Below are positions 7,561 through 41,388 of a DNA stretch of 44,208 nt, piece by piece. Numbering within the stretch: the first letter of the stretch is position 1; every line of letters begins with the position of its first letter. Source of the stretch: Nitrospirota bacterium (GTDB taxonomy: Bacteria > Nitrospirota > Thermodesulfovibrionia > Thermodesulfovibrionales > BMS3Bbin05); assembly GCA_020351835.1 (NCBI GenBank), contig CP070669.1, positions 1,440,488-1,484,695 on the forward strand. Direction: 5' to 3'. The position numbers were made by a program, and so were the translations under genes. The notes beneath the pieces were generated by a model that saw only the letters and a list, made by a program, of their open reading frames with translations, was not told the origin of the DNA and did no database searches.

Positions 7561-8237
7561 TGAGCGAGATCATCAGGACCATAGGACTGACAAAATCCTT
7601 CAATACAGAGGCCGGTACACTGGATGTTCTTAAAGGCATCGACCTGAAGATAGAAAGAGGAGACCTGATCGCAATAACCGGTGCATCCGGTGCAGGGAAA
7701 AGCACTCTTCTGCACATCCTCGGCACCGTTGACCGTCCTACCTCGGGAGAGGTCCTGTATTCCGGAAGAGATGTTTTCGGCCTTGATGATGAGGACCTGT
7801 CTTCCTTCCGTAACAACAACATTGGGTTTGTATTCCAGTTCCATCATCTTCTTCCCGAGTTCTCAGCACTAGAGAACGTTATAATGCCCGGACTGATCTC
7901 AGGCGCTAACCGTACAGCTATAGAAAAGAAGGCCTCTGGCATTCTATCTGATCTCGGCGTGGTTGACCGCGGACATCACAGACCAGGAGAGCTATCCGGT
8001 GGTGAACAGCAAAGAGTAGCAGTTGCCCGGGCACTGATACTTGATCCAGATATCGTTCTTGCAGATGAACCCACCGGTAACCTTGACACTGCCACAGGTG
8101 AAGAACTTTTCTCTAATATAAAGGAATTAAACAACAAGATGGGCCTGACATTCATTATTGTCACTCATAATGAGGCCCTGGCAAAGAAATGCGACAGGAT
8201 ACTTCACATCTCAGACGGAATTATCCAGGACCGATGA
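7560..8237 (+). CDS. lolD: lipoprotein-releasing system ATP-binding protein
   Basis: ATPase of the Lol exporter. 225 residues from the ATG at 7560, which overlaps the permease stop (TAATG). Walker [11 protein letters not shown]-loop [11 protein letters not shown], signature LSGGEQQR, Walker [12 protein letters not shown] and the H-loop histidine in VTHNEAL are all intact; the LLPEF sequence after the Q-loop is typical of LolD rather than MacB-type ATPases. An upstream in-frame start at 7464 would lie inside the permease gene and is not needed. Confidence 0.95.
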
Positions 8238-8279
8238 CCCTCCGGTATTACCCGATACATTTTATTCTGACCTTAGTTA

Positions 8280-8285
8280 TATAAT
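8280..8285 (+). promoter_or_regulatory. -10 element close to the start of the flippase-like gene
   Basis: A perfect TATAAT lies 10 nt before the ATG at 8296, with no Shine-Dalgarno between them. No convincing -35 box is placed correctly. If used, it would give an mRNA with a leader of only a few nucleotides. Confidence 0.4.
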
Positions 8286-8295
8286 AGACATCGTT

Positions 8296-9306
8296 ATGTC
8301 TGTTATATCTGATCCTTCTCGAAGAAGAGCGTATTTCTGGTTCGGAATAGCTGTAAGCGCTATATCTTTGATAATAGCATTCAGTCTGGTCGAGTGGAAC
8401 GAACTGAAAAGTTCGTTGAGCCAGGCTGATTATATTTGGCTGGTACCATCAGCATTGGTAACATTCCTCGCGCTTTCCGCCAGGGCCGAAAGATGGCGGT
8501 GGCTTATGGGTGGCCAACAGTATGTGTCGTTCGGGAGGTCGTTCAGGGCGATCTCTATAGGCTACCTCATCACCAACCTTTTCCCATTCAGGCTGGGTGA
8601 GCTCGTTAGGCCCCTTGTAATTGCCCGTGGTGGGAAGATCAGGGGGATGCATTCTTTCTCCACGATAGCAGTGGAACACCTTCTTGACCTCCTTATGGTC
8701 CTTATAATGTTCTCACTGGTGCTTTATGATGTAGTGCTCCCCGATACTGCTGAAAAAGGAGCCCTAAGGGCCTTCGTTCTTTTCATCATTACGACTGCTG
8801 TATTGATCTTAATGGTCTGGCAACGCTCAAGACTGGAAAGGCTCGCATCATCGATCATTAGCAGGATGCCGGTAATTGACAATCTGAAATGGATTGATCG
8901 ATTCAGTTCATTCATGCAAGGGCTTGAAATTATAAGATCGACCAGAATGTTCTTTATATCATTAATATGGTCCGTGGTCTCATGGTTGCTGTCAGCTGCA
9001 GGCTTTTACTTTGCCCTTAAAGCATTTATACCTGAAGCTGGACTCATGACAGCTTTTCTTGTAACGATCGCTGCAACACTTGCAAGGCTTGCCCCTGCCA
9101 CTCCCGGCTCTATCGGAGTTATCCAGATAGTGATACAGCAGTCCCTTACCGCATACAATATATCACCAAGCATAGGCCTCGCTTTTGGTATCGTCTATCA
9201 CGCTGTCGAGTTCATAGTTCTTAACATTGCCGGGGTTATAAGCGTGATCCTGGAAGGGATGTCATGGACATCTCTGGTATCGACCTTTCACAGGGCTGAA
9301 AAATAG
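8296..9306 (+). CDS. UPF0104 / lysylphosphatidylglycerol synthase TM-region family protein
   Basis: 336-residue integral membrane protein with about eight hydrophobic helices. It belongs to the PF03706 (UPF0104, YbhN/AglD-like) family, whose members include the flippase half of MprF and proteins tied to lipid or polyprenol transport. Conserved family stretches: ARAERWRWL near residue 60, LFPFRLGELVRP near 105 and LARLAPATPGSIGVIQ near 275. I place the start at ATG 8296; longer versions would run back into lolD. There is no C-terminal aminoacyltransferase domain, so it is not a full MprF. It meets the amino-sugar operon tail to tail with 5 nt between. Confidence 0.85.
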   Translation: MSVISDPSRRRAYFWFGIAVSAISLIIAFSLVEWNELKSSLSQADYIWLVPSALVTFLALSARAERWRWLMGGQQYVSFGRSFRAISIGYLITNLFPFRLGELVRPLVIARGGKIRGMHSFSTIAVEHLLDLLMVLIMFSLVLYDVVLPDTAEKGALRAFVLFIITTAVLILMVWQRSRLERLASSIISRMPVIDNLKWIDRFSSFMQGLEIIRSTRMFFISLIWSVVSWLLSAAGFYFALKAFIPEAGLMTAFLVTIAATLARLAPATPGSIGVIQIVIQQSLTAYNISPSIGLAFGIVYHAVEFIVLNIAGVISVILEGMSWTSLVSTFHRAEK

Positions 9307-28680: not shown

Positions 28681-29274
28681 CTAAATAAGTCCTTTGTTAT
28701 GAACATCTTCTATAGTATCTACATCCTGTAGATACTCAGTATAAGCTATAGTGCGACCGAGCGACTCGGCAACTACTATTGTCTGTTGAAGAGTATGCGG
28801 TGAAGACCATTGTATATCTCTGAAGATAGCTTCCAATGGCTTCTTCATGCCTATGAGATAATATCCCCCGTCCAATGCCGGTCCGAACACCAGGTCATTA
28901 TGTTCAAGCATGGAAAAAGCATTCTCTACAATGCCACCAGTGAGGTCAGGTATGTCCACACCGACGAGAACTGTCTTACCGTAACCTCTGCCAATGACCT
29001 CCTCTATAGCCCTGAACATTCTTTCGCCAATATCTCCCTCCACCTGAGGAAATACATCAGATCCAAACATCTTAAAGTAACTATCAGCATTATATGGCGT
29101 GTAATTAATAATAGTATCGATCCCTGATAGACCACTCAGCCTGGATATTGTGTTATGCAATAACTTTTCGTAAAGACCCACTCTTTCCTGAGGAGACATT
29201 GATCCTGATAGCCTGGTCTTTACGGTATCCGGGTCCGGATACTTGGCCATTATGATCAACGCACTGTCGTTCAT
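28681..29274 (-). CDS. rSAM/selenodomain-associated transferase 1 (TIGR04282, DUF2064)
   Basis: 197 residues of nucleotidyltransferase/GT-A type. Diagnostic stretches: IIMAKYPDPDTVKTRL at the N-terminus (family: KxPxPGxVKTRL), VGVDIPDL near residue 97 and FGPALDGGYYLIGM near 128. Family members are usually encoded beside a radical SAM/selenodomain protein and have been linked to arsenosugar-type pathways, but that partner is not in this window. The ATG shares its first base with the stop of the upstream partner gene. Confidence 0.87.
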   Translation of the reverse strand: MNDSALIIMAKYPDPDTVKTRLSGSMSPQERVGLYEKLLHNTISRLSGLSGIDTIINYTPYNADSYFKMFGSDVFPQVEGDIGERMFRAIEEVIGRGYGKTVLVGVDIPDLTGGIVENAFSMLEHNDLVFGPALDGGYYLIGMKKPLEAIFRDIQWSSPHTLQQTIVVAESLGRTIAYTEYLQDVDTIEDVHNKGLI

Positions 29275-29969
29275 TACCTTACATCCTTATAACTTTTGAT
29301 CAGCGTTTCGGGAGAGACGTTCAGAATTGCGAACATCAATGCAAGCTTCCAATCCCTTAAAGTGGTATAGACAATGCCCTCTTCAAGCCACCTCCTCGGG
29401 GATGCATGCACCGGAGGCCTCAGGAATACGGGCCTGCCGGTCTTCTTTAACCTTCTTGATATGTCTATATCTTCCATCAACGGGATATCAGCAAATCCAC
29501 CCACATCTAAATAGAGTGATCTTAAAAAGAACATACCCTGATCTCCATAAGGGATCTTCGTTATCCACGACCTGATATTGGCGAACAGTTCCGTAACCCT
29601 GAAACAGAAGGCACTATGGTCGATCCTTAGATCGAAGGCACCATAGCCGGAAAGGCCGGAACCAAGGGCATGGCGAATCTGTTCCAGGGCATTGTCCGGA
29701 AGCATTGAATCTGCATGCAGTATCAGGATAGCTTCACAATTTGCGTTCTGAGCCCCTGCTCTTAATTGTGACCCCCTCCCTTTTTTTGAGGAAATCACGT
29801 TCCCTGTGAACTTTCTGGCTATATCTAGAGTTCCGTCGCTACTGCCCCCGTCTACCACAATTAGCTCATCTCCGGCGTCCATATTAAGAGAAGTTAGTGT
29901 CCGCTCAAGTACTTTTTCCTCGTTGTATGTAGGAACTACTATGGATATGTTGATATATTTACTGGTCAT
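29274..29969 (-). CDS. rSAM/selenodomain-associated transferase 2 (TIGR04283 glycosyltransferase)
   Basis: A GT2-like protein of about 231 residues: SIVVPTYNEE at the start, LIVVDGGSSDGTLDIA, then KGRGSQLRAGAQNANCEAILILHADSMLP carrying the metal-binding Asp, and DQGMFFLRSLYLDVGGF, all typical of TIGR04283. It is normally paired with the TIGR04282 protein, as here (1-nt overlap). ATG 29969 is preferred; TTG 29978 is in frame just upstream and neither has a good ribosome binding site. Confidence 0.87.
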   Translation of the reverse strand: MTSKYINISIVVPTYNEEKVLERTLTSLNMDAGDELIVVDGGSSDGTLDIARKFTGNVISSKKGRGSQLRAGAQNANCEAILILHADSMLPDNALEQIRHALGSGLSGYGAFDLRIDHSAFCFRVTELFANIRSWITKIPYGDQGMFFLRSLYLDVGGFADIPLMEDIDISRRLKKTGRPVFLRPPVHASPRRWLEEGIVYTTLRDWKLALMFAILNVSPETLIKSYKDVR

Positions 29970-30017
29970 GGTAGACAATTAGATTTTAACATGTCACTTA
30001 CTTTAGCGCATATTTTC

Positions 30018-31506: not shown

Positions 31507-32154
31507 CTAAAACCCGCTAATCTTAATATTGTCATAGAACGCTGTAGCTGTCTCCCCTGTATCATCAGAATCCGTCATTATTGCTATAGCGCCTACTTTG
31601 GTCGGCTCTTTACCAAATACCATCTTATAATCCTCATATACATTCCTGCTCTCACTTACCCACCTCCCGGTGTTATCATCTCCGCTCTCTACAGCTATCA
31701 TTACAGTCCCGGAGTGATAAGCATTAGGCAGATACTCTCCGATAGGAAGTCTGCTTGACCATATGTAGTTTATGCTCTTTGTCAGAGGCTTGAACCAGTG
31801 AGGGAATATGACATATATTCTCGCCGGATAATCATCACCACTTTTAACCCGCGCATCACCCTTTATATAAATATTGCTTACTTTCCATTCCCAGGATAGC
31901 ATGGGATAATCCTTGAGTTCGTAACTCCTCCTGAATATTAGCCCCGAGGCAGAACTCTGACTGTAGGCCTTAAGGACATTGCCCTTCTCGAAGCTTTCGA
32001 CAGTGTAATCTACATGGCCCCTGAAATCCTTTCTTTCCCATGCAGGGTTTAACCCATCCTCGAAGTCATCTATTACAATGGTATCGGCATAACCTGATGG
32101 TATCATCATGGCCAAGATCGCAATACACAATATGAGCCTCATGGCAACATTCAT
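31507..32154 (-). CDS. DUF3047 exported protein
   Basis: 215 residues from ATG 32154. A signal peptide (MNVAMRLILC to SGYA, about 1-23) is followed by a beta-rich domain: IDDFEDGLNPAWERKDF, then LSWEWKV and YPARIYVIFP, the hallmarks of DUF3047, whose biochemical role is unknown; the fold is probably a jelly-roll related to carbohydrate-binding modules. Start selection rests on the signal peptide and on a promoter whose -10 box ends 5 nt before this ATG; no ribosome binding site is visible, so the mRNA is probably leaderless. First gene of an operon with the flavodoxin. Confidence 0.85.
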   Translation of the reverse strand: MNVAMRLILCIAILAMMIPSGYADTIVIDDFEDGLNPAWERKDFRGHVDYTVESFEKGNVLKAYSQSSASGLIFRRSYELKDYPMLSWEWKVSNIYIKGDARVKSGDDYPARIYVIFPHWFKPLTKSINYIWSSRLPIGEYLPNAYHSGTVMIAVESGDDNTGRWVSESRNVYEDYKMVFGKEPTKVGAIAIMTDSDDTGETATAFYDNIKISGF

Positions 32155-32159
32155 ACTGA

Positions 32160-32217
32160 ATAATACAATGTATCTGATCAAAAGTTAAGTGACCTTGGTT
32201 ACACTTTTCAGTATAAT
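32160..32217. promoter_or_regulatory. back-to-back divergent promoters
   Basis: Minus strand: TTAACT (32188-32183), 17 bp, TATTAT (32165-32160), 5 nt before the DUF3047 ATG. Plus strand: GTGACC (32189-32194), 17 bp, TATAAT (32212-32217), start near 32224. The two -35 boxes are immediately adjacent, so only one polymerase could occupy the region at a time. Confidence 0.65.
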
Positions 32218-32253: not shown

Positions 32254-35200
32254 ATGGACCTCTGCTCACTTGATTACCTTATAGGGACCCTTGCTACTGC
32301 TTACAAGGGGATGGTCACATCTCTTGTAGCTAAGGATTTCTGTATCTCTTCCTCAGGGAAAACTACATCATTTAAAGGGACCGTTATCTCCTTACCTGAA
32401 GATGGATACATTATGACGCTAATGCAAGGTGGCAGGGAGATAGGCAGAACACGGTTAAATAAAGGCTATTTCGAGCTATATACCGACGTCAGTATCGACG
32501 ATATGTCAGGCAACGTTCAACTTGATCTTATCAGGTCAGGAAGGCATATAGGCACATTTCTTTTGAAAAGAGAAGCTGCCGGTGGACAGTATGCATCCGC
32601 GTTTGAGATATCAGAAGAGCTCAGAGATTACAACTTTCGGGCCATGAACGATGCTTTGAAGGATAAAAAGGGGCTTCAGGAGAAGGGAGAGAACATAATT
32701 ACATCAGTTATGTCATCAAAAAAGGATTGGAAACTGCTATCTGATTCGATCAATACCTTCGCAAGGGACCTTTTCTGGACCGACATAGACATATTTAAGA
32801 GATGGTACATATTCATAGTGCGTTACTCGGCACTTTCAGCGGTCTATGCTGACCGATCCTTCAGAAGCAAGGCTATCTCGAACTTCCTGTCCCTTATAGA
32901 ACTACCTGCCGAACATGAAATAAAAGAGGAACTGCTGGGCTTTATGGCCGACCAGTGGGCATCGGTACTTTCTTTAACAAGGATAGATGTATCACCAAAG
33001 CTGAAAGGTTTCCTGAAGGTTCTGGGGTCAATAAACAAAAAGCTTCCGGACCATGACATTGGCCCGGCATTGGCTTCGGTCAGGGACTCGGTTCGTACAG
33101 CTATCGAAGAAACATCTTTTATTGGCAAGCAAGCGACGGATACCCTGATGGCAACAGTAAATGAAAAGGAATTTGCCTCTTTAATGCTATTTACACATAT
33201 TAATGCGGATAGGGTCCTCAAAGATATAAAAAAACTCCCCGAGGACACAGCTACTGGCATCCAGGAATTGAGCAAGATAGATCCATTGATGTTCGACCAG
33301 GGAGAGAAAATAAGGATGCTTCTTGTCCCCCTCAGGGAACATATATCATACATGTCATCCGATAAAATCTCGATCTTACTGGAAGAAGTGTCCAGAATAT
33401 CTATCACCACAACTCCTGACGTTTACAAGTCTGCACTGACCCTTTTGCTGAACATTATTGAGGGATTGGCAGATAAAGGTGACTTCGAACGCATAACGAT
33501 CCTTCTGGAGTTCCTTGGGGCAACTGATGACGTTATAAAGGATGATATAATGTTCGACCAGCGCCTAGTAGAGACCATACTTAAGAGTAACAATGACAGT
33601 CTTCTTTCTTTATACTCATCCATCCTTACGCAGATATTTGTTCCTCCACCATCTATAACCGGATATTCTGGTCAGACATGGGCAGAGATAGCCGATCCAA
33701 TGCATTTTAAGCGAATAAAGGGATTTATGATGGTCACATGTGTCTCACCCGATAAGATGAAAGCCGTGCTTTATCACCTTATAGCAAATCTGTTCATAAG
33801 CGGTGTCTTCATCCCTGATGACAGATTGTTTCAGCGGGATATAACACAATATCTTAATACAGTAACAATCACGGACGACTTCCTTGACCATTACCTTCTT
33901 CTGCAGAAGTTTCCGGTCTACTTTCATGAGGTAGGTGCTTCGGGCAGGATAAGAGAACTTTCTACAGAGATAGATTCCTGGGGGAACGATCCGGTCATTT
34001 ATTTCCTTCGTAAACAGGTCCATGTCAATGCAAGCAGTCTGAACATAGAGCTGATCGAGAAGATAATCTCTTCATGGGCTTTGAACGACAAAAGTATCCT
34101 CTTAGGTTCATTACCCGACGAGATATACGATTCGGTCGATACTGACCTTTTAAATTCATATTCACAGGCTCTCAAGCAAGTTCTTACAGAGAACGGAGTA
34201 TTATCAGATGGTGGTCTCCAGATAAAGAATATATTCAATATATCCGATGATGCCATCAAAAGGTCTGTCATTGATATCGAAGCCCCTGGTGAGGTAAAAG
34301 AGAAGATAATGCTGTTATTCAAGATATATAAAGGTCTTGTAGGCAAATACTCTCATGTAAGCGTAAAAGATGAGAGGGGCGAAGACAGGTCTTCATCACT
34401 TGCAGGTTATATCAATAAACTAAGACAGCTGAAAGCAATATTCATATCTCCTCAAAGAACTGAAGCTAAAGAATCGTTCTATTTTAAAAGGCACATCGCA
34501 TTTGGCATTCCATCGGTCATAGGCTCTTATAGTGAACCGAAGTTTGACTCGTTCGGAGAGTTCCTGAAAACTGAGGATCTCACAAGAGTCCTGCTGGAAG
34601 AGATGATATCCGAGATAGACGGTCTCGGGGACAGGGCAACTACTGATAACATTATTTCATGGCTTGACTCTCTGGGTACGTATCATGAGCTGTTCGAGCT
34701 GCACGGAATGTCAAATCCTGTGGTCAATGAATTGATAGATATCTTGACCGGTAACATCCTTTATCTTTCACAGATCGTTGATCTTCTCAGGAGCTGGCAG
34801 AGGGAACTGACATGGATGGTAGAAATGTTATACAGGCGTTTTCATGATCCTTTGATAAATGTCCTTATACGATATCCTGCCGATAAACTTCCAGCCTCAC
34901 TCTCTAAGATAGAAGGCGATGGTGAGCAATTCATTAACAGGGCCGCCGATACGATAATGAGAGACATATTGAACGGCATAACGGGATTTGAGGAACTTGA
35001 CCGCCTTCTGAACAGCCTGGTCAGGTGCATTGGAAGAAAGATAGATACAGGCGATGACATACAGATATCCTCTGGCGGCAACATTAGCCATTCAAAAGAT
35101 GTCATTTACTTTGATGAGTTATCTCACAAAGAGGTCTCCAGGCTTTCACCGGTTCTAGGAAGCAAAGCGAAGAACCTGATATTGCTTTTCAATAAAGGAC

Positions 35201-36609
35201 TTTCAGTTCCTTTCGGCGTGGTCTTTTCAGCATCGAAGACCACAGAATATGAGTCATACGTAAATAGTGAACGTTTCAGCTCTTCAGTTGAAGATGCTCT
35301 GTTGAGATTAGAACAGGCTACCGGAAAGAAGTATGGCGATGGCACGAACCCTCTGCTTCTTTCGGTCAGGAGCGGTTCTTATATATCAATGCCCGGGATA
35401 CTTTCTTCTATTCTATACTGTGGAATGAACATTAGCACAGTAATGGCGATGTCATCTGATCCGGATATGGAATGGCATGCCTGGGATTCTTACAGAAGGT
35501 TTATAGAACACTATTCTAACGTGGTAAACGGCCTGCCGATGGCGGATTTTGAAGAGATAGCAAACAGGGTTACTTCTGGATCAGGTATCTCCGGGATCAG
35601 GGAGCTTGACAGGTCCCGGATGAAAGAACTGGTTTTAATGTATAAAGAAATGTTGCTACTTAGGGATCTATCAGTGCCTGAGGACCCTTTTGAACAATTG
35701 AAAGTTGCGATCTCTGCAATATACAGATCATGGTTCGATGAGAGAGCATTACAGTTCAGAAATGCAATGGGTGTATCAGAGCACTGGGGCACATCCGTAA
35801 CCCTACTTCCTATGGTCCGGGCCAATAATAAGTATGGAGGCGCATCGGTGTTCTTTACGAGGGATCCTTCTACCCTCAGTAGCTCAATATACGGTGAAAC
35901 CAGACGCATGGCAACCGGTGACGATATTGTATTCGGAAAACTATCAAGTCGGCCTCTATCGACCTTTCAGGTGGCCGATGAAGGTGAAAGCCTGGAACAA
36001 TCAGACCCTGTCCTGTATGATCTGCATAAAAAGGCTGCCGAACTGGTCGAGAAAGCAATGGGCGGAATACCTCAGGAAGTAGAAGCAGCCTATACGATCG
36101 ATAGCTCCGGCACCATACACCTGGATATACTCCAGACGAAACGAATGGAGTTTCGTCGCGGAAAAACCGAGATATTTCATGATATATGCCGAATGGAGTC
36201 AAGCATTATCGGACGAGGGATCGGTGTCCATGGCGGAGCACTGAGCGGCGTTGCTATCTTTTCCGATTCTGCTGATGAGATAAAAGAAATCAGAGCTAAA
36301 TTCGACCAGCCTCTGATCTTATTGAGAACAGAGACTAATACGGATGATGTCTCGCTTATGCCAGAGATCGACGGGCTGCTCACTTCAACAGGCGGGGCGA
36401 CCTCTCATGCTGCCATTCTCGCACAAAAGTTCGATCTTACTTCCGTTGTCGGATGTTCCGACATGGTCATACAACGAACAGCAAAAGGAGTGAGTGCTCT
36501 TATCGGCGATCTTGAGATATCTGAAGGGACATCTCTAAGCATAGATGGCGCATCAGGCATAGTATATTCGGGGGTCTGTCTTTTGACCGTCCAGAAGTAT
36601 AAGTTCTGA
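32254..36609 (+). CDS. giant PEP/pyruvate-dikinase-like protein (PPDK ATP-grasp plus phosphohistidine domain)
   Basis: 1451 residues. Residues about 15-105 look beta-rich (TSFKGTVISLPEDGYIM). About 105-930 are mostly helical and unrecognised. About 945-1300 match the PPDK/PEP-synthase N-terminal ATP-grasp domain (GSKAKNLILLFNKGLSVPFGVVFS; LLSVRSGSYISMPG near 1036). The C-terminal about 120 residues form the swivelling phosphohistidine domain with TSTGGATSHAAILA near 1378-1391. The PEP/pyruvate-binding TIM barrel that ends PPDK and PEP synthase is absent. It could therefore phosphorylate another acceptor, as rifampicin phosphotransferase and glucan water dikinase do. The ribosome binding site is poor. 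A Crp/Fnr gene follows. Confidence 0.88.
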   Translation: MDLCSLDYLIGTLATAYKGMVTSLVAKDFCISSSGKTTSFKGTVISLPEDGYIMTLMQGGREIGRTRLNKGYFELYTDVSIDDMSGNVQLDLIRSGRHIGTFLLKREAAGGQYASAFEISEELRDYNFRAMNDALKDKKGLQEKGENIITSVMSSKKDWKLLSDSINTFARDLFWTDIDIFKRWYIFIVRYSALSAVYADRSFRSKAISNFLSLIELPAEHEIKEELLGFMADQWASVLSLTRIDVSPKLKGFLKVLGSINKKLPDHDIGPALASVRDSVRTAIEETSFIGKQATDTLMATVNEKEFASLMLFTHINADRVLKDIKKLPEDTATGIQELSKIDPLMFDQGEKIRMLLVPLREHISYMSSDKISILLEEVSRISITTTPDVYKSALTLLLNIIEGLADKGDFERITILLEFLGATDDVIKDDIMFDQRLVETILKSNNDSLLSLYSSILTQIFVPPPSITGYSGQTWAEIADPMHFKRIKGFMMVTCVSPDKMKAVLYHLIANLFISGVFIPDDRLFQRDITQYLNTVTITDDFLDHYLLLQKFPVYFHEVGASGRIRELSTEIDSWGNDPVIYFLRKQVHVNASSLNIELIEKIISSWALNDKSILLGSLPDEIYDSVDTDLLNSYSQALKQVLTENGVLSDGGLQIKNIFNISDDAIKRSVIDIEAPGEVKEKIMLLFKIYKGLVGKYSHVSVKDERGEDRSSSLAGYINKLRQLKAIFISPQRTEAKESFYFKRHIAFGIPSVIGSYSEPKFDSFGEFLKTEDLTRVLLEEMISEIDGLGDRATTDNIISWLDSLGTYHELFELHGMSNPVVNELIDILTGNILYLSQIVDLLRSWQRELTWMVEMLYRRFHDPLINVLIRYPADKLPASLSKIEGDGEQFINRAADTIMRDILNGITGFEELDRLLNSLVRCIGRKIDTGDDIQISSGGNISHSKDVIYFDELSHKEVSRLSPVLGSKAKNLILLFNKGLSVPFGVVFSASKTTEYESYVNSERFSSSVEDALLRLEQATGKKYGDGTNPLLLSVRSGSYISMPGILSSILYCGMNISTVMAMSSDPDMEWHAWDSYRRFIEHYSNVVNGLPMADFEEIANRVTSGSGISGIRELDRSRMKELVLMYKEMLLLRDLSVPEDPFEQLKVAISAIYRSWFDERALQFRNAMGVSEHWGTSVTLLPMVRANNKYGGASVFFTRDPSTLSSSIYGETRRMATGDDIVFGKLSSRPLSTFQVADEGESLEQSDPVLYDLHKKAAELVEKAMGGIPQEVEAAYTIDSSGTIHLDILQTKRMEFRRGKTEIFHDICRMESSIIGRGIGVHGGALSGVAIFSDSADEIKEIRAKFDQPLILLRTETNTDDVSLMPEIDGLLTSTGGATSHAAILAQKFDLTSVVGCSDMVIQRTAKGVSALIGDLEISEGTSLSIDGASGIVYSGVCLLTVQKYKF

Positions 36610-36692: not shown

Positions 36693-37382
36693 ATGACAAA
36701 ACATCGAACAAAGCTCTGGTACCTTAAGAACCTCGACTTCTTCAGCCATCTTCGGGAAGAGGAATATAAGATGATCGACAAGATCTCCAAGATGGAAGAC
36801 GTAAAAAAAGGAGATGTCCTGTACCTGCAAGGAGCTGCTGCTGAGAACATATATATTCTGAAGAAAGGTGCCGTTAAGATAACCAAGCTTACCCCTCAGG
36901 GGAAGGAAATAATCATCGATATATTCAAGGGAGGCTCAATATTCGGTGAAATGTCCGTTGTAGAGCCAGAGGAAAGAGATGAGTCCGCGGAGATGATAGA
37001 AGATGGCAAGATATGTACTTTGACCAGGGAGAACTTTGACCGGATGCTGGAAATGGTACCGGGTCTCTCTATAAGGGTAACTAAGATGATAGGAATGAGA
37101 AAGTGGAAAATGGAGAACAAACTCCTTGACCTTTTATACAGTTCAGTAGAGCAAAGGCTCTCAAAGACCATACTAAACCTTCTTGAGGATTTCGGTGTAC
37201 CCTATAACGGCGGCTATCTCCTGAAGATCAAGCTCACACATAAGGATTTTGCGGACCTTATAGCATCCACCCGTGAGACCGTAACGGCCACACTTAATAA
37301 GTTGAAGAGTGATGGCCTGATAGATATTGAAGATAAATATATATTTATCCCGTCACTTGATGCCTTAAAACGGTCCATATAG
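36693..37382 (+). CDS. Crp/Fnr-family transcriptional regulator
   Basis: 229 residues. An N-terminal cyclic-nucleotide-binding beta-barrel (about 15-130: GDVLYLQGAAAENIYILKKGAVKI, then IFGEMSVVEPEE) is joined by the long dimerisation helix (about 130-155) to a winged helix with recognition segment LTHKDFADLIASTRETVTATLNKLKSDGLI (about 185-215). There is no N-terminal Cys cluster, so it is not an FeS-type FNR; the phosphate-binding Arg of cAMP-binding CRP is not evident. It lies between the giant dikinase and the DUF255 gene on the same strand and may regulate either. Shine-Dalgarno is weak. Confidence 0.9.
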   Translation: MTKHRTKLWYLKNLDFFSHLREEEYKMIDKISKMEDVKKGDVLYLQGAAAENIYILKKGAVKITKLTPQGKEIIIDIFKGGSIFGEMSVVEPEERDESAEMIEDGKICTLTRENFDRMLEMVPGLSIRVTKMIGMRKWKMENKLLDLLYSSVEQRLSKTILNLLEDFGVPYNGGYLLKIKLTHKDFADLIASTRETVTATLNKLKSDGLIDIEDKYIFIPSLDALKRSI

Positions 37383-37397
37383 ACCAAGGATATGACA

Positions 37398-39176
37398 ATG
37401 AAAGACAGAAATCCTCCGGAACTGAGATTTTCGCCTAATCCTAATAGTGCTCATCTCGTAGATTGGAGACCTTGGGATCAGGCCGCTCTTGAAGAAGCAA
37501 AAAGGAAAGACAGGCTAATTCTGCTATCAATAAGTGCCGTTTGGTGCCACTGGTGCCATGTTATGGATGAAAGTACTTACTCCAAGAAGGAGATCATCGA
37601 TATCATAAATGAGAACTTTATACCGGTAAGAGTTGATGCTGATATGAGACCTGATGTAGACAATATGTACAACCAGGGCGGTTGGCCTTCTACCGTCTTT
37701 TTAACGCCCGATGGTGAGATCGTTCATGGAGGCACATATATTCCTCCCGATGATATGTTCGTCAGACTTGAACGTCTTATTGAGCTGTATCCGGCAAAGA
37801 GATCTATGATCGAATCAAGGTTCTCGGATGTCAAAAGAGAACTTGAGATGATGAAACCGACCAATATCGCCCCTTCTACAGAGCAACTGCGAAAAGTTCT
37901 GAATATAATCGAAGAGAGCTTTGACTGGACACACGGCGGGTTCGGATCATCACAGAAGTTCCCTAATACTGATGCTATCGATCTCCTTACAGCTCAATAC
38001 AGTGACTCTGGCAATACTAAGTTCAGGGAAATGGTTTCGATTACACTGGGGAAAATGGCATCTGGAGATATATTCGATCATGTTGAAGGAGGTTTCTTCA
38101 GATATTCGACCAAACGTGACTGGTCCATCCCGCATTATGAAAAGATGTTGGCGGATAATGCAGGTATTATAAAGAACTATCTTATAGCCTCTGCCGTTCT
38201 GGATGAACCGTGGATGACAAATATCGCAGAAAGGACAATGAAGTATGTCCTTGATAATCTAACTGACCTTAAAATGTACCGCTTCTTTGGTAGCCAGGAT
38301 GCAGATGAATCCTACTATATTAAGAATGATAGAAAGGGACTTAAAGTACCATTTATTGATAAGACCACTTATACCGACAGCAATGCAAGAATGATAAGTA
38401 CTTTGACATATTCATACTGTTTAAATGGCAATTATGAACACCTGGCCCTGGCTGAGAGATCGGCATTTTTTATCAATGAGTCCATGTACTCGCCCTCAGC
38501 CGGGGTCAAACATTATTATACTGGGGACACAGGTTTTTTGAGCGGGGTCCTATCCGATAATGTGCTACATGCAATATCTCTTTTGGATCTATACAATGTA
38601 ACCGGGAATAACTCCTATCTTAGAATAGCGAGGGGAATATCCGATCTTTTAATCAAAGATTTTTTCATAGAAGATGTGGATAGGTTCAGGCCGTCTCTCA
38701 ACACAACAGGGACATCGCCGCTGCACACAGGTACACTGAATGACTACAATACATGTCTTGTTAATTTCAGGGTCTCACTGCTTTTTGCGAGACTGCATTA
38801 TCATTTGAACCTGGATGAATACCTGAATACCGCCAATAAAGTACTATCATCGTTCGGAGATATCTTTGACGCATATTTGCCTGCTGCCCCTGTTTACGGC
38901 CTTGCATTACGGTGGCTTTTTGGCGATCCGCTCATCTTCATAATCGTTGCCGGACAGGAGGTTGGTTCGAATTTCATCGGCCAGATAAGGAAAATTCACC
39001 ATCCGGAAAAAGTGGTCCGTCTTCTATCGCCTGATGTTGATAGGACGGTAATAGAAGATCTGGGTCTTCCTGCCAATGTTAACGCAGCTTATATCTGTGA
39101 AGGAAAGAGATGCTCAAGGCCTGTAACCGAACCCGACATGATCGAACGTGAAATGCAGGCTTTCCTTAAATCATGA
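37398..39176 (+). CDS. DUF255 thioredoxin-domain protein (YyaL/spermatogenesis-associated 20 family)
   Basis: 592 residues from ATG 37398, preferred over ATG 37392 because AAGGA (37386-37390) is 7 nt from the former and only 1 nt from the latter. The N-terminal thioredoxin-like DUF255 domain has the redox pair Cys50-Cys53 in AVWCHWCHVM and GGWPSTVFLTPDG. The remainder resembles the six-hairpin (alpha/alpha)6 fold of N-acylglucosamine 2-epimerases and cellobiose epimerases, with GGFGSSQKFPN and HYEKMLADNAG conserved. It is somewhat shorter than the usual 650-700 residues. Function of the family is unsettled. Starts 15 nt after the Crp/Fnr gene. Confidence 0.9.
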   Translation: MKDRNPPELRFSPNPNSAHLVDWRPWDQAALEEAKRKDRLILLSISAVWCHWCHVMDESTYSKKEIIDIINENFIPVRVDADMRPDVDNMYNQGGWPSTVFLTPDGEIVHGGTYIPPDDMFVRLERLIELYPAKRSMIESRFSDVKRELEMMKPTNIAPSTEQLRKVLNIIEESFDWTHGGFGSSQKFPNTDAIDLLTAQYSDSGNTKFREMVSITLGKMASGDIFDHVEGGFFRYSTKRDWSIPHYEKMLADNAGIIKNYLIASAVLDEPWMTNIAERTMKYVLDNLTDLKMYRFFGSQDADESYYIKNDRKGLKVPFIDKTTYTDSNARMISTLTYSYCLNGNYEHLALAERSAFFINESMYSPSAGVKHYYTGDTGFLSGVLSDNVLHAISLLDLYNVTGNNSYLRIARGISDLLIKDFFIEDVDRFRPSLNTTGTSPLHTGTLNDYNTCLVNFRVSLLFARLHYHLNLDEYLNTANKVLSSFGDIFDAYLPAAPVYGLALRWLFGDPLIFIIVAGQEVGSNFIGQIRKIHHPEKVVRLLSPDVDRTVIEDLGLPANVNAAYICEGKRCSRPVTEPDMIEREMQAFLKS

Positions 39177-39999: not shown

Positions 40000-41388
40000 A
40001 TGAAAGAATACGACGTCATTGTAATAGGCTCCGGAGCCGGCTCAATAATTGCGGAGAATGCTATCAGGCATGATATGTCTGTAGCTCTCATCGACAAAGG
40101 CCCTCTCGGAGGCACATGTCTTAATGTAGGCTGCATTCCCTCTAAAATGCTCATATATCCCGCTGACAGGATCGCAGAGATCCTTGATTCTGAAAAACTG
40201 GGCATAAAGGCATCAATAGACAGCATAGACTTCATGTCCATTATGGAAAGGATGAGGACAAAGGTAAGTACCAGTGCAGGTCACATACGCAAAGGTATAT
40301 CAAACGTAAAGGGCCTGGACCTTTATGAGGCCGTCGGACGTTTTACCGGAGAGCACTCTCTTGATGTAGATGGAGAAAAGATCACGGGAGACAAGATATT
40401 TATCGCAGCCGGAGCAAGGCCTCACATACCGGAGGGTATCGGATTTGAGAACATCGATTATCTTACGAATGAAAATGCACTGGAACTCTCAGAACTGCCG
40501 AAGAGCATGATAGTAATTGGAGGCGGTTTCATTTCGGCAGAATACGCTCATTTCTTTTCCGCCATGGGTACCGACATCACCATCGTACAGCGCAATAAGA
40601 TGTTCCTTCCTGATGAAGAACCTGAACTGTCTGATATCCTACTTAAGGAAATGAGAAAGAGGATGACCATATTCACCGGAACCGAGGTTGTTCGCGTTGA
40701 ACGGACATCTGACGGAATAAGGGTCACAGGTAAGGACAGGGGGACATCTGAAACAAATTACTATACGGCTGAAAAGGTCCTGGTCGTGACCGGAAGGAAA
40801 TCAAATGCAGATCTGCTTCAGGTAGCAAAAGCCGGAATAAAGACCGACAAGCGCAACTATATAATCGTTGACGACTACCTACAGACCAATAAAAAGAGAA
40901 TATGGGCGTTCGGCGATATCATTGGCAAACAGATGTTTCGGCATGTCGCTAACCGTGAGGCCACGGTAGCATGGCATAATGCGATTGACACGGCCGGACA
41001 TAAGCATAAGATGGATTATCATGCTTCACCTCATGCTGTCTTTACGTATCCCGAGATCGCATCAGTTGGAATGAAAGAATATGAAGCTATTGCAGAATAC
41101 GGTCCCGAAGGAATACTGGTAGGCAAAGGATATTTCTCTGAGGTAGCTATGGGTGAAGCTATGGTTGATGATGCCAGTATGGCAAAGGCCGTGGTAAGCA
41201 GGTCTGATGGAAAGATAGTCGGGTTTCACGTCTTAGGCCCGCACGCCTCTATTCTCATCCAAGAGGTCATTAATGCAATGGCCCTAGGTGGAGACATTAG
41301 GATCCTCGGAGAGGGCATGCATATTCATCCGGCTCTCTCAGAGGTCATAATCTCGGCCCTTAACAATCTTGAAGAGCCCTCGGTCTAG
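40000..41388 (+). CDS. dihydrolipoamide dehydrogenase-like pyridine nucleotide-disulfide oxidoreductase
   Basis: 462 residues, class I flavin disulfide reductase. FAD-binding VIGSGAGSIIAENAI at the N-terminus, redox pair Cys40-Cys45 in GGTCLNVGCIPSKML, NAD(P)-binding VIGGGFISAEYAHFF (about 170-185), FAD motif IWAFGDI (about 305) and the catalytic base pair His443-Glu448 in HPALSE. Close to Lpd and mycothione-reductase branches. No 2-oxoacid dehydrogenase or glycine-cleavage genes are nearby, so its dithiol substrate is open. No clear Shine-Dalgarno at ATG 40000. Converges on the lipoprotein gene. Confidence 0.9.
   Translation: MKEYDVIVIGSGAGSIIAENAIRHDMSVALIDKGPLGGTCLNVGCIPSKMLIYPADRIAEILDSEKLGIKASIDSIDFMSIMERMRTKVSTSAGHIRKGISNVKGLDLYEAVGRFTGEHSLDVDGEKITGDKIFIAAGARPHIPEGIGFENIDYLTNENALELSELPKSMIVIGGGFISAEYAHFFSAMGTDITIVQRNKMFLPDEEPELSDILLKEMRKRMTIFTGTEVVRVERTSDGIRVTGKDRGTSETNYYTAEKVLVVTGRKSNADLLQVAKAGIKTDKRNYIIVDDYLQTNKKRIWAFGDIIGKQMFRHVANREATVAWHNAIDTAGHKHKMDYHASPHAVFTYPEIASVGMKEYEAIAEYGPEGILVGKGYFSEVAMGEAMVDDASMAKAVVSRSDGKIVGFHVLGPHASILIQEVINAMALGGDIRILGEGMHIHPALSEVIISALNNLEEPSV

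Follow-up and report, generated by a model that had tools for sequence, protein, structure and literature searches.

A PPDK-related dikinase-like protein of Nitrospirota with a long conserved N-terminal region and a putative new acceptor site

The window analyzed here is a 44,208 nt stretch of a Nitrospirota genome (contig CP070669.1). It contains an open reading frame with a translated sequence of 1451 aa and no internal stop codons, whose C-terminal part displays the ATP-grasp and phosphohistidine domains of the dikinase PPDK and whose first 940 residues belong to no recognized family. The protein and its orthologs are termed family A; a sister family, termed B, shares the central and catalytic parts. 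The architecture, the intact ATP-site residues, a conserved core, the split into two families and the gene associations were computed. The best explanation, to which we give an even chance, is that the gene encodes an active PPDK-derived dikinase that has lost the pyruvate site and has an N-terminal acceptor module instead, with the acceptor bound in a helical core. ATP in the ATP-grasp domain would give a phosphorylated His1385 and AMP, as in PPDK, and the swivel domain would then move the phosphate to the acceptor in the helical core (aa positions ~451–775). The positively charged site is predicted to be formed by the invariant residues R586, K587, H590, K745, R746, H747, E761 and K763. The acceptor would most likely be a small, anionic metabolite derived from a sugar, i.e. 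a sugar phosphate or sugar acid of the pentose phosphate branch. An anionic small molecule is favored because the core is basic and invariant, and sugar metabolism is favored because of the gene context.

Analysis of the aa sequence by Pfam shows PPDK_N at positions 998–1241 (E-value = 5.8e-17) and the PEP-utilizers mobile domain at positions 1351–1435 (3.8e-16), and nothing else. The PDB sequence matches are PPDKs and span positions 964–1440 (1.8e-59). The PPDK-type ATP-grasp domain that the first-pass annotation had placed from about residue 945 is confirmed at positions ~945–1300 by Pfam, PDB and alignment. Its C-terminal phosphohistidine domain is also found; the TSTGGATSHAA motif is present, and His1385 aligns with the catalytic His of the 915 aa PPDK encoded in the same genome. 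The protein ends just past this swivel domain. As had been claimed, the C-terminal phosphoenolpyruvate (PEP)/pyruvate barrel is absent by Pfam, NCBIfam, PDB and structure superposition. Family scores are below the cut-offs: 280 bits against 843 for NCBIfam PPDK (TIGR01828), 52 against 740 for PEP synthase (TIGR01418) and 17 against 999 for RIF_Ptrans_rph. The PPDK of the same genome is normal and complete, thus the dikinase-like gene is an extra gene. The architecture is kept in 27 Nitrospirota orthologs (33–49% identity), which shows that this is not a chance open reading frame.

Residues K971, R1039, R1082, E1275, E1277, Q1294, K1296 and H1385 pair in the alignment with K22, R92, R135, D321, E323, Q335, R337 and H455 of PPDK (numbering of the C. 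symbiosum enzyme). All mapped ATP-site and catalytic residues are kept or conservatively changed, in the orthologs as well. Thus the ATP-grasp domain is not degenerate, a possibility that had been raised earlier as an objection. The alignment supports a catalytic half of the dikinase type in which the ATP-site residues are intact. A pseudo-enzyme with a vestigial catalytic half would account for the change of PPDK R337 to Lys (K1296) and for scores far under the PPDK cut-offs, but families A and B both retain the ATP-site residues and the catalytic His, and we consider this explanation very improbable.

The N-terminal 940 residues show no Pfam family, and Pfam gives merely scattered matches, in single members each, for the same region of the 27 orthologs. 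No credible sequence relative was found in the PDB; matches to designed repeats, apolipoprotein E and similar sequences were judged to be driven by composition. This region gives no match to a PEP synthase regulatory or PEP-binding domain, and the description of more than 900 unrecognized residues ahead of the catalytic part holds. An AlphaFold2 model of the front end (pLDDT 86, pTM 0.73) displays a beta-sandwich of eight strands at positions 8–105, a helical solenoid at about 120–450 and a helical core with one beta-hairpin (739–760). Foldseek comparison of this model with the PDB gives no match at E ≤ 0.001; what is found are generic helical-repeat proteins with a TM-score of about 0.15.

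The beta-rich start noted in the first-pass annotation is thus reproduced in the model. For residues 15–105, where a carbohydrate-binding fold had been suggested, a beta-sandwich is predicted, but Foldseek finds no match to a carbohydrate-binding module (CBM) fold. A GWD-like glycan dikinase, in which the sandwich would bind a polysaccharide, would fit this predicted domain, a family-2 glycosyltransferase nearby in the window and glycoside hydrolases near related Crp genes. However, no CBM family is matched in Pfam either, no close linkage of family A to starch or glycogen genes was seen, family B lacks the sandwich, and the strongest shared residues are elsewhere. In addition, the His and ATP domains of GWD are in the reverse order, whereas here the phosphohistidine domain follows the ATP-grasp domain. 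The gene context points to central sugar metabolism rather than to a polymer, with pentose phosphate genes near family A and a GAPDH-like partner in family B. A glycan acceptor bound through a CBM is therefore not upheld, and we regard it as decidedly improbable. Residues C4, C30, D91 and H98 of the sandwich are invariant in all 27 family A members. These residues might bind a metal.

Family B proteins are about 1360–1430 aa in length and align with the window protein from about residue 440 to its end. They share the helical core and the catalytic half with family A at about 30% identity. Near-invariant columns of family A are distributed unevenly: there are 43 at positions 1–175, two at 176–450, and then dense clusters at 451–600 and 726–775. 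The solenoid (176–450) is the least conserved and a fast-evolving region of the front end, with almost no invariant residues past about position 175. The core at 451–775 is dense in invariant R, K, H, D and E residues among the 27 family A orthologs and has the motifs RKQxH (586–590) and, in the beta-hairpin, FKRHIAFGIPSVxGxY (744–759), followed by E761 and K763. Residues that are invariant or nearly so across both families include H484, D522, P554, R567, T571, D574, D579, R586, K587 and H590, and also K698, Y699, E740, K745, R746, H747, S754, G757, E761 and K763. Because conservation concentrates in 451–775 and is shared with the sister family, the acceptor site is probably in the N-terminal part of the protein, as had been proposed.

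A model of residues 400–1451 (AlphaFold2 with 42 sequences; pLDDT 87.3, pTM 0.84) superposes on PPDK 1KBL with an rmsd of 3.0 over 539 columns and on 2R82 with an rmsd of 14.5. 1KBL is the acceptor-docked and 2R82 the ATP-docked swivel state of PPDK; the modeled swivel domain would be in the acceptor-docked rather than the ATP-docked position. A path from His1385 to the helical core may be envisaged.

The strongest rival is a regulator that phosphorylates proteins, comparable to VadK (Rv1127c) of M. tuberculosis. VadK is derived from PPDK, lacks a PEP domain, autophosphorylates and interacts with enzymes encoded nearby (PMC13400623). Here, an autophosphorylated His1385 would control enzymes by docking to them or phosphorylating them through the solenoid and beta-sandwich, with pentose phosphate pathway enzymes as targets for family A and the GAPDH-like partner for family B. 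The front end is mostly helical repeat with generic solenoid matches, a fold type that is often protein-binding, and the genes are linked to metabolic enzymes. However, the solenoid is the least conserved region, the compact charged core that is invariant in A and B looks like a small-molecule site, and VadK itself has no such front end. We hold this rival to be possible but less than probable.

The neighbor survey in related genomes, suggested in the first-pass annotation, shows pentose phosphate genes with family A in several lineages and a GAPDH-like gene with family B at 19 of 19 loci. At locus L033 the family A gene is flanked by a MIP channel gene and rpiA-gnd at distances of about 35 bp. 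In genome G370, zwf-tkt is 119 bp from the family A gene and gnd is upstream by a few kb. In G266 it is followed within about 1–8 kb by tkt, tal, zwf, pgl and gnd, and in G323, G037, G013 and G057, zwf/gnd are on the same contig at 11–21 kb. The linkage spans at least four lineages. The zwf gene is found in 25 of 26 sampled genomes bearing family A; among 61 relatives it is present in 10/10 with family A vs 14/51 without (p about 2e-5, with relatedness ignored and all 61 assumed to be in the sampled set). In two genomes of one family, a beta-phosphoglucomutase-like HAD gene is directly upstream of family A (L041:9166-9975, L096:9219-10040).

In family B the gene directly downstream on the same strand, at all 19 loci that have flanks, encodes a divergent GAPDH-family protein of 405–478 aa. 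The gap is -136 to 84 nt, the starts being uncertain. The protein scores 306 bits against the GAPDH-I model TIGR01534, below its cut-off of 367. It retains the catalytic Cys and His and a Pi-site-like motif, but substrate and cofactor motifs are altered: PTPNVSVVDL is replaced by a PxxxGSLxIL-type sequence and the cofactor loop by N(I/L/V)GR. Family A genomes without family B were not found to contain this partner, only an ordinary GAPDH of ~340 aa. In family B, a GAPDH-like phosphorylating dehydrogenase probably either consumes the product or supplies it, and because of this partner an acyl-phosphate or phospho-sugar is suggested as product or donor.

The partner pair does not appear to replace PGK, which is present in 20/20 genomes tested; replacement was rejected for this reason, and the family B partner is thus an addition. 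A second, weaker PGK-family gene (about 440–470 aa, 249–272 bits) is found in eight of these 20 genomes (G013, G037, G038, G048, G235, G277, G317 and G372). PGK in every genome tested also bears on a mainly reverse reaction, in which a phosphorylated metabolite would give phospho-His1385 and AMP would be converted to ATP, the protein being an energy-conserving enzyme of sugar oxidation. PPDK is reversible, and the partner of family B looks like a phosphorylating aldehyde dehydrogenase, from which a high-energy acyl phosphate would be expected, but family A has no GAPDH-like partner, and we find the reverse direction improbable.

Returning to transfer of phosphate to a small acceptor, several points weigh against it. 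At most of the remaining family A loci the neighbors differ (complex I, cytochrome oxidase and others), and no partner gene is obligate for family A. The window genome has an intact tkt-rpiB-gnd-tal-zwf-pgl operon, which is about 320 kb from the dikinase gene. ROK sugar kinases are present in 18/18 genomes checked, so that family A is not accounted for by an obvious lack of a kinase. The Lys at the position of PPDK R337 is a further point. Moreover, that the enzyme is active, where the acceptor binds and what it is are all inferred, and the charged core could instead be structural or protein-binding.

A missing sugar kinase was also rejected as an explanation on the wider pattern: besides ROK, Glucokinase is scattered and FGGY above the cut-off occurs in 0/18, and this does not distinguish genomes with and without family A. 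Although FGGY is not found above the cut-off in these 18 Nitrospirota genomes, MIP-family channel genes are present in two pentose phosphate clusters (L033 and L118).

Taken together, families A and B may form a new dikinase branch that phosphorylates central sugar metabolites through a phosphohistidine. In this view A would act in the pentose phosphate pathway, and B would make up, together with its obligate GAPDH-like partner, a new module of a dikinase and a phosphorylating dehydrogenase, an AMP-generating counterpart of PGK/GAPDH. This is a tentative proposal, which we think possible but less than probable.

Family A is found at 25 named Nitrospirota loci and in no other phylum in a motif scan of 84,980 species that used two narrow patterns. 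Of the 396 Nitrospirota genomes sampled, about 26 contain it; G001, the one further member of the window's genus in the set, does not. Family B is common in Thermodesulfovibrionales-like genomes, and no plasmid-borne relatives were found. A tree built on the catalytic half separates A, B and PPDK into three distinct clades (supports 99/97, 99/100 and 99/100), with long branches that limit statements on their order. Two irregular loci were encountered. The seeming fusion at L081:8609-12355 (genome G277), in which family B is preceded by a TAXI-type solute-binding start, was rejected as an assembly gap, since a run of unknown bases joins the parts. At L036:9983-14385 (genome G048) the family A gene is broken into two open frames of about 800 and 640–700 aa; unknown bases are close to the break, and an assembly error or a frameshift is the probable cause.

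The features of the window are listed in Table 1. The Crp-type regulator 83 bp downstream of the dikinase gene shares 73% identity with the Crp that immediately precedes an rpe-tkt-tal-gnd-zwf-pgl operon in G013 and 63% with the one a short way upstream of the L033 cluster. Other Crp paralogs in 11 genomes show at most 33% identity over their length, with three exceptions: a second G013 copy in the same region (57%), a G012 protein (68%) with a GH15 glycoside hydrolase in its vicinity, and a fragment of 52 residues in G001. The LpdA-like protein is 55% identical to one that ends the G266 pentose phosphate cluster. The DUF3047 protein likewise adjoins the ortholog in L031 and recurs near the G013 pentose phosphate operon, and the DUF2064/glycosyltransferase pair recurs upstream of Crp-MIP-dikinase-RpiA-Gnd in L033. 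A defense system was considered and rejected, as PADLOC gave no match. The window has no RNA features and no tRNA. Promoter-like sites are at chance level and terminator-like sites number 8 vs 5.1 expected; no transcription unit is claimed.

Table 1. Positions of the dikinase-like gene, its segments and its neighbors in the window, with the partner genes of family B in the last line
Feature	Position	Strand	Basis
Dikinase-like gene, family A, 1451 aa	32254-36609	+	ORF; Pfam/NCBIfam/PDB; 27 aligned orthologs
Residues 1-115, N-terminal beta-sandwich, family A only	32254-32598	+	AlphaFold2 model; invariant columns
Residues 116-450, helical solenoid	32599-33603	+	AlphaFold2; conservation bins
Residues 451-775, putative helical acceptor core common to family B	33604-34578	+	Conservation; AlphaFold2
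Residues 776-940, helical region linking core and catalytic half	34579-35073	+	AlphaFold2 models
Residues 945-1300, PPDK-type ATP-grasp domain	35086-36153	+	Pfam, PDB matches, PPDK alignment, superposition
Residues 1315-1448, swivelling phosphohistidine domain	36196-36597	+	Pfam, PDB matches, superposition
Codon of catalytic His1385 (GGATSHAA)	36406-36408	+	PPDK alignment
DUF2064 transferase and family-2 glycosyltransferase pair	28681-29978	-	
DUF3047 protein, divergent neighbor	31507-32181	-	
Crp-type regulator	36693-37382	+	
DUF255/DsbH thioredoxin-like protein, downstream of Crp	37392-39176	+	
LpdA-like flavoprotein	40000-41388	+	
GAPDH-like partner genes: L077, L078, L079, L094 and 15 further family B loci	7587-8804 (L077)	-	

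A literature search found no paper describing family A or B. If true, a conserved branch that has a novel acceptor module and, in B, a strict GAPDH-like partnership would add a new reaction to the central carbon metabolism of Nitrospirota. In family B the question is open to direct tests, because the partner enzyme narrows the candidate substrates. At present these proteins are probably annotated as PPDK or as PEP-binding proteins, and pathway reconstructions would be misled as a result. To our knowledge the acceptors of phosphohistidine dikinases are few, i.e. pyruvate, rifamycins, phenols, glucans and possibly proteins.

The window protein resembles PPDK (C. symbiosum, 1KBL) in its ATP-grasp and phosphohistidine domains, their order, the catalytic residues and the fold. 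Unlike PPDK it has no C-terminal barrel, carries a 940-residue unrelated N-terminus and is in its own clade, and the phosphohistidine domain (GGxTSHAA) is C-terminal rather than central. PEP synthase is excluded by the family score and the lack of the barrel. GWD also has an acceptor-binding N-terminal region before its catalytic half, possibly with a beta-sandwich, but the window protein has no CBM45 match and no glucan context. Family B is similar in core and catalytic half and differs from A in the missing sandwich, the obligate GAPDH-like downstream gene and the lack of a link to pentose phosphate genes. The protein is similar to VadK in its PPDK-derived domains, the lack of a PEP domain and the linkage to metabolic pathway genes (PMC13400623); however VadK is essentially the catalytic half alone, and the window protein adds 940 conserved residues (beta-sandwich, solenoid and charged core). 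Rph and the two-component dikinases show that the superfamily, which the Rph authors describe as a large unexplored group, gains new acceptors by changing the acceptor domain (PMC4844700; PMC12167813). Rph and the two-component HpeHI, CreHI and phenylphosphate synthase are likewise phosphohistidine dikinases with a domain for a small-molecule acceptor other than pyruvate and a C-terminal swivel His (PMC4844700; PMC12167813). Their acceptor domain is between the ATP-grasp and swivel domains, whereas in the window protein it would be ahead of both, the order being an N-terminus of no known family, then ATP-grasp, then swivel His, which is not the Rph order. In addition, the ATP-grasp domain here is PPDK-type and no similarity to their acceptor domains was found. 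The window protein fails the defining tests of PPDK, PEP synthase, Rph and GWD, yet shares their chemistry.

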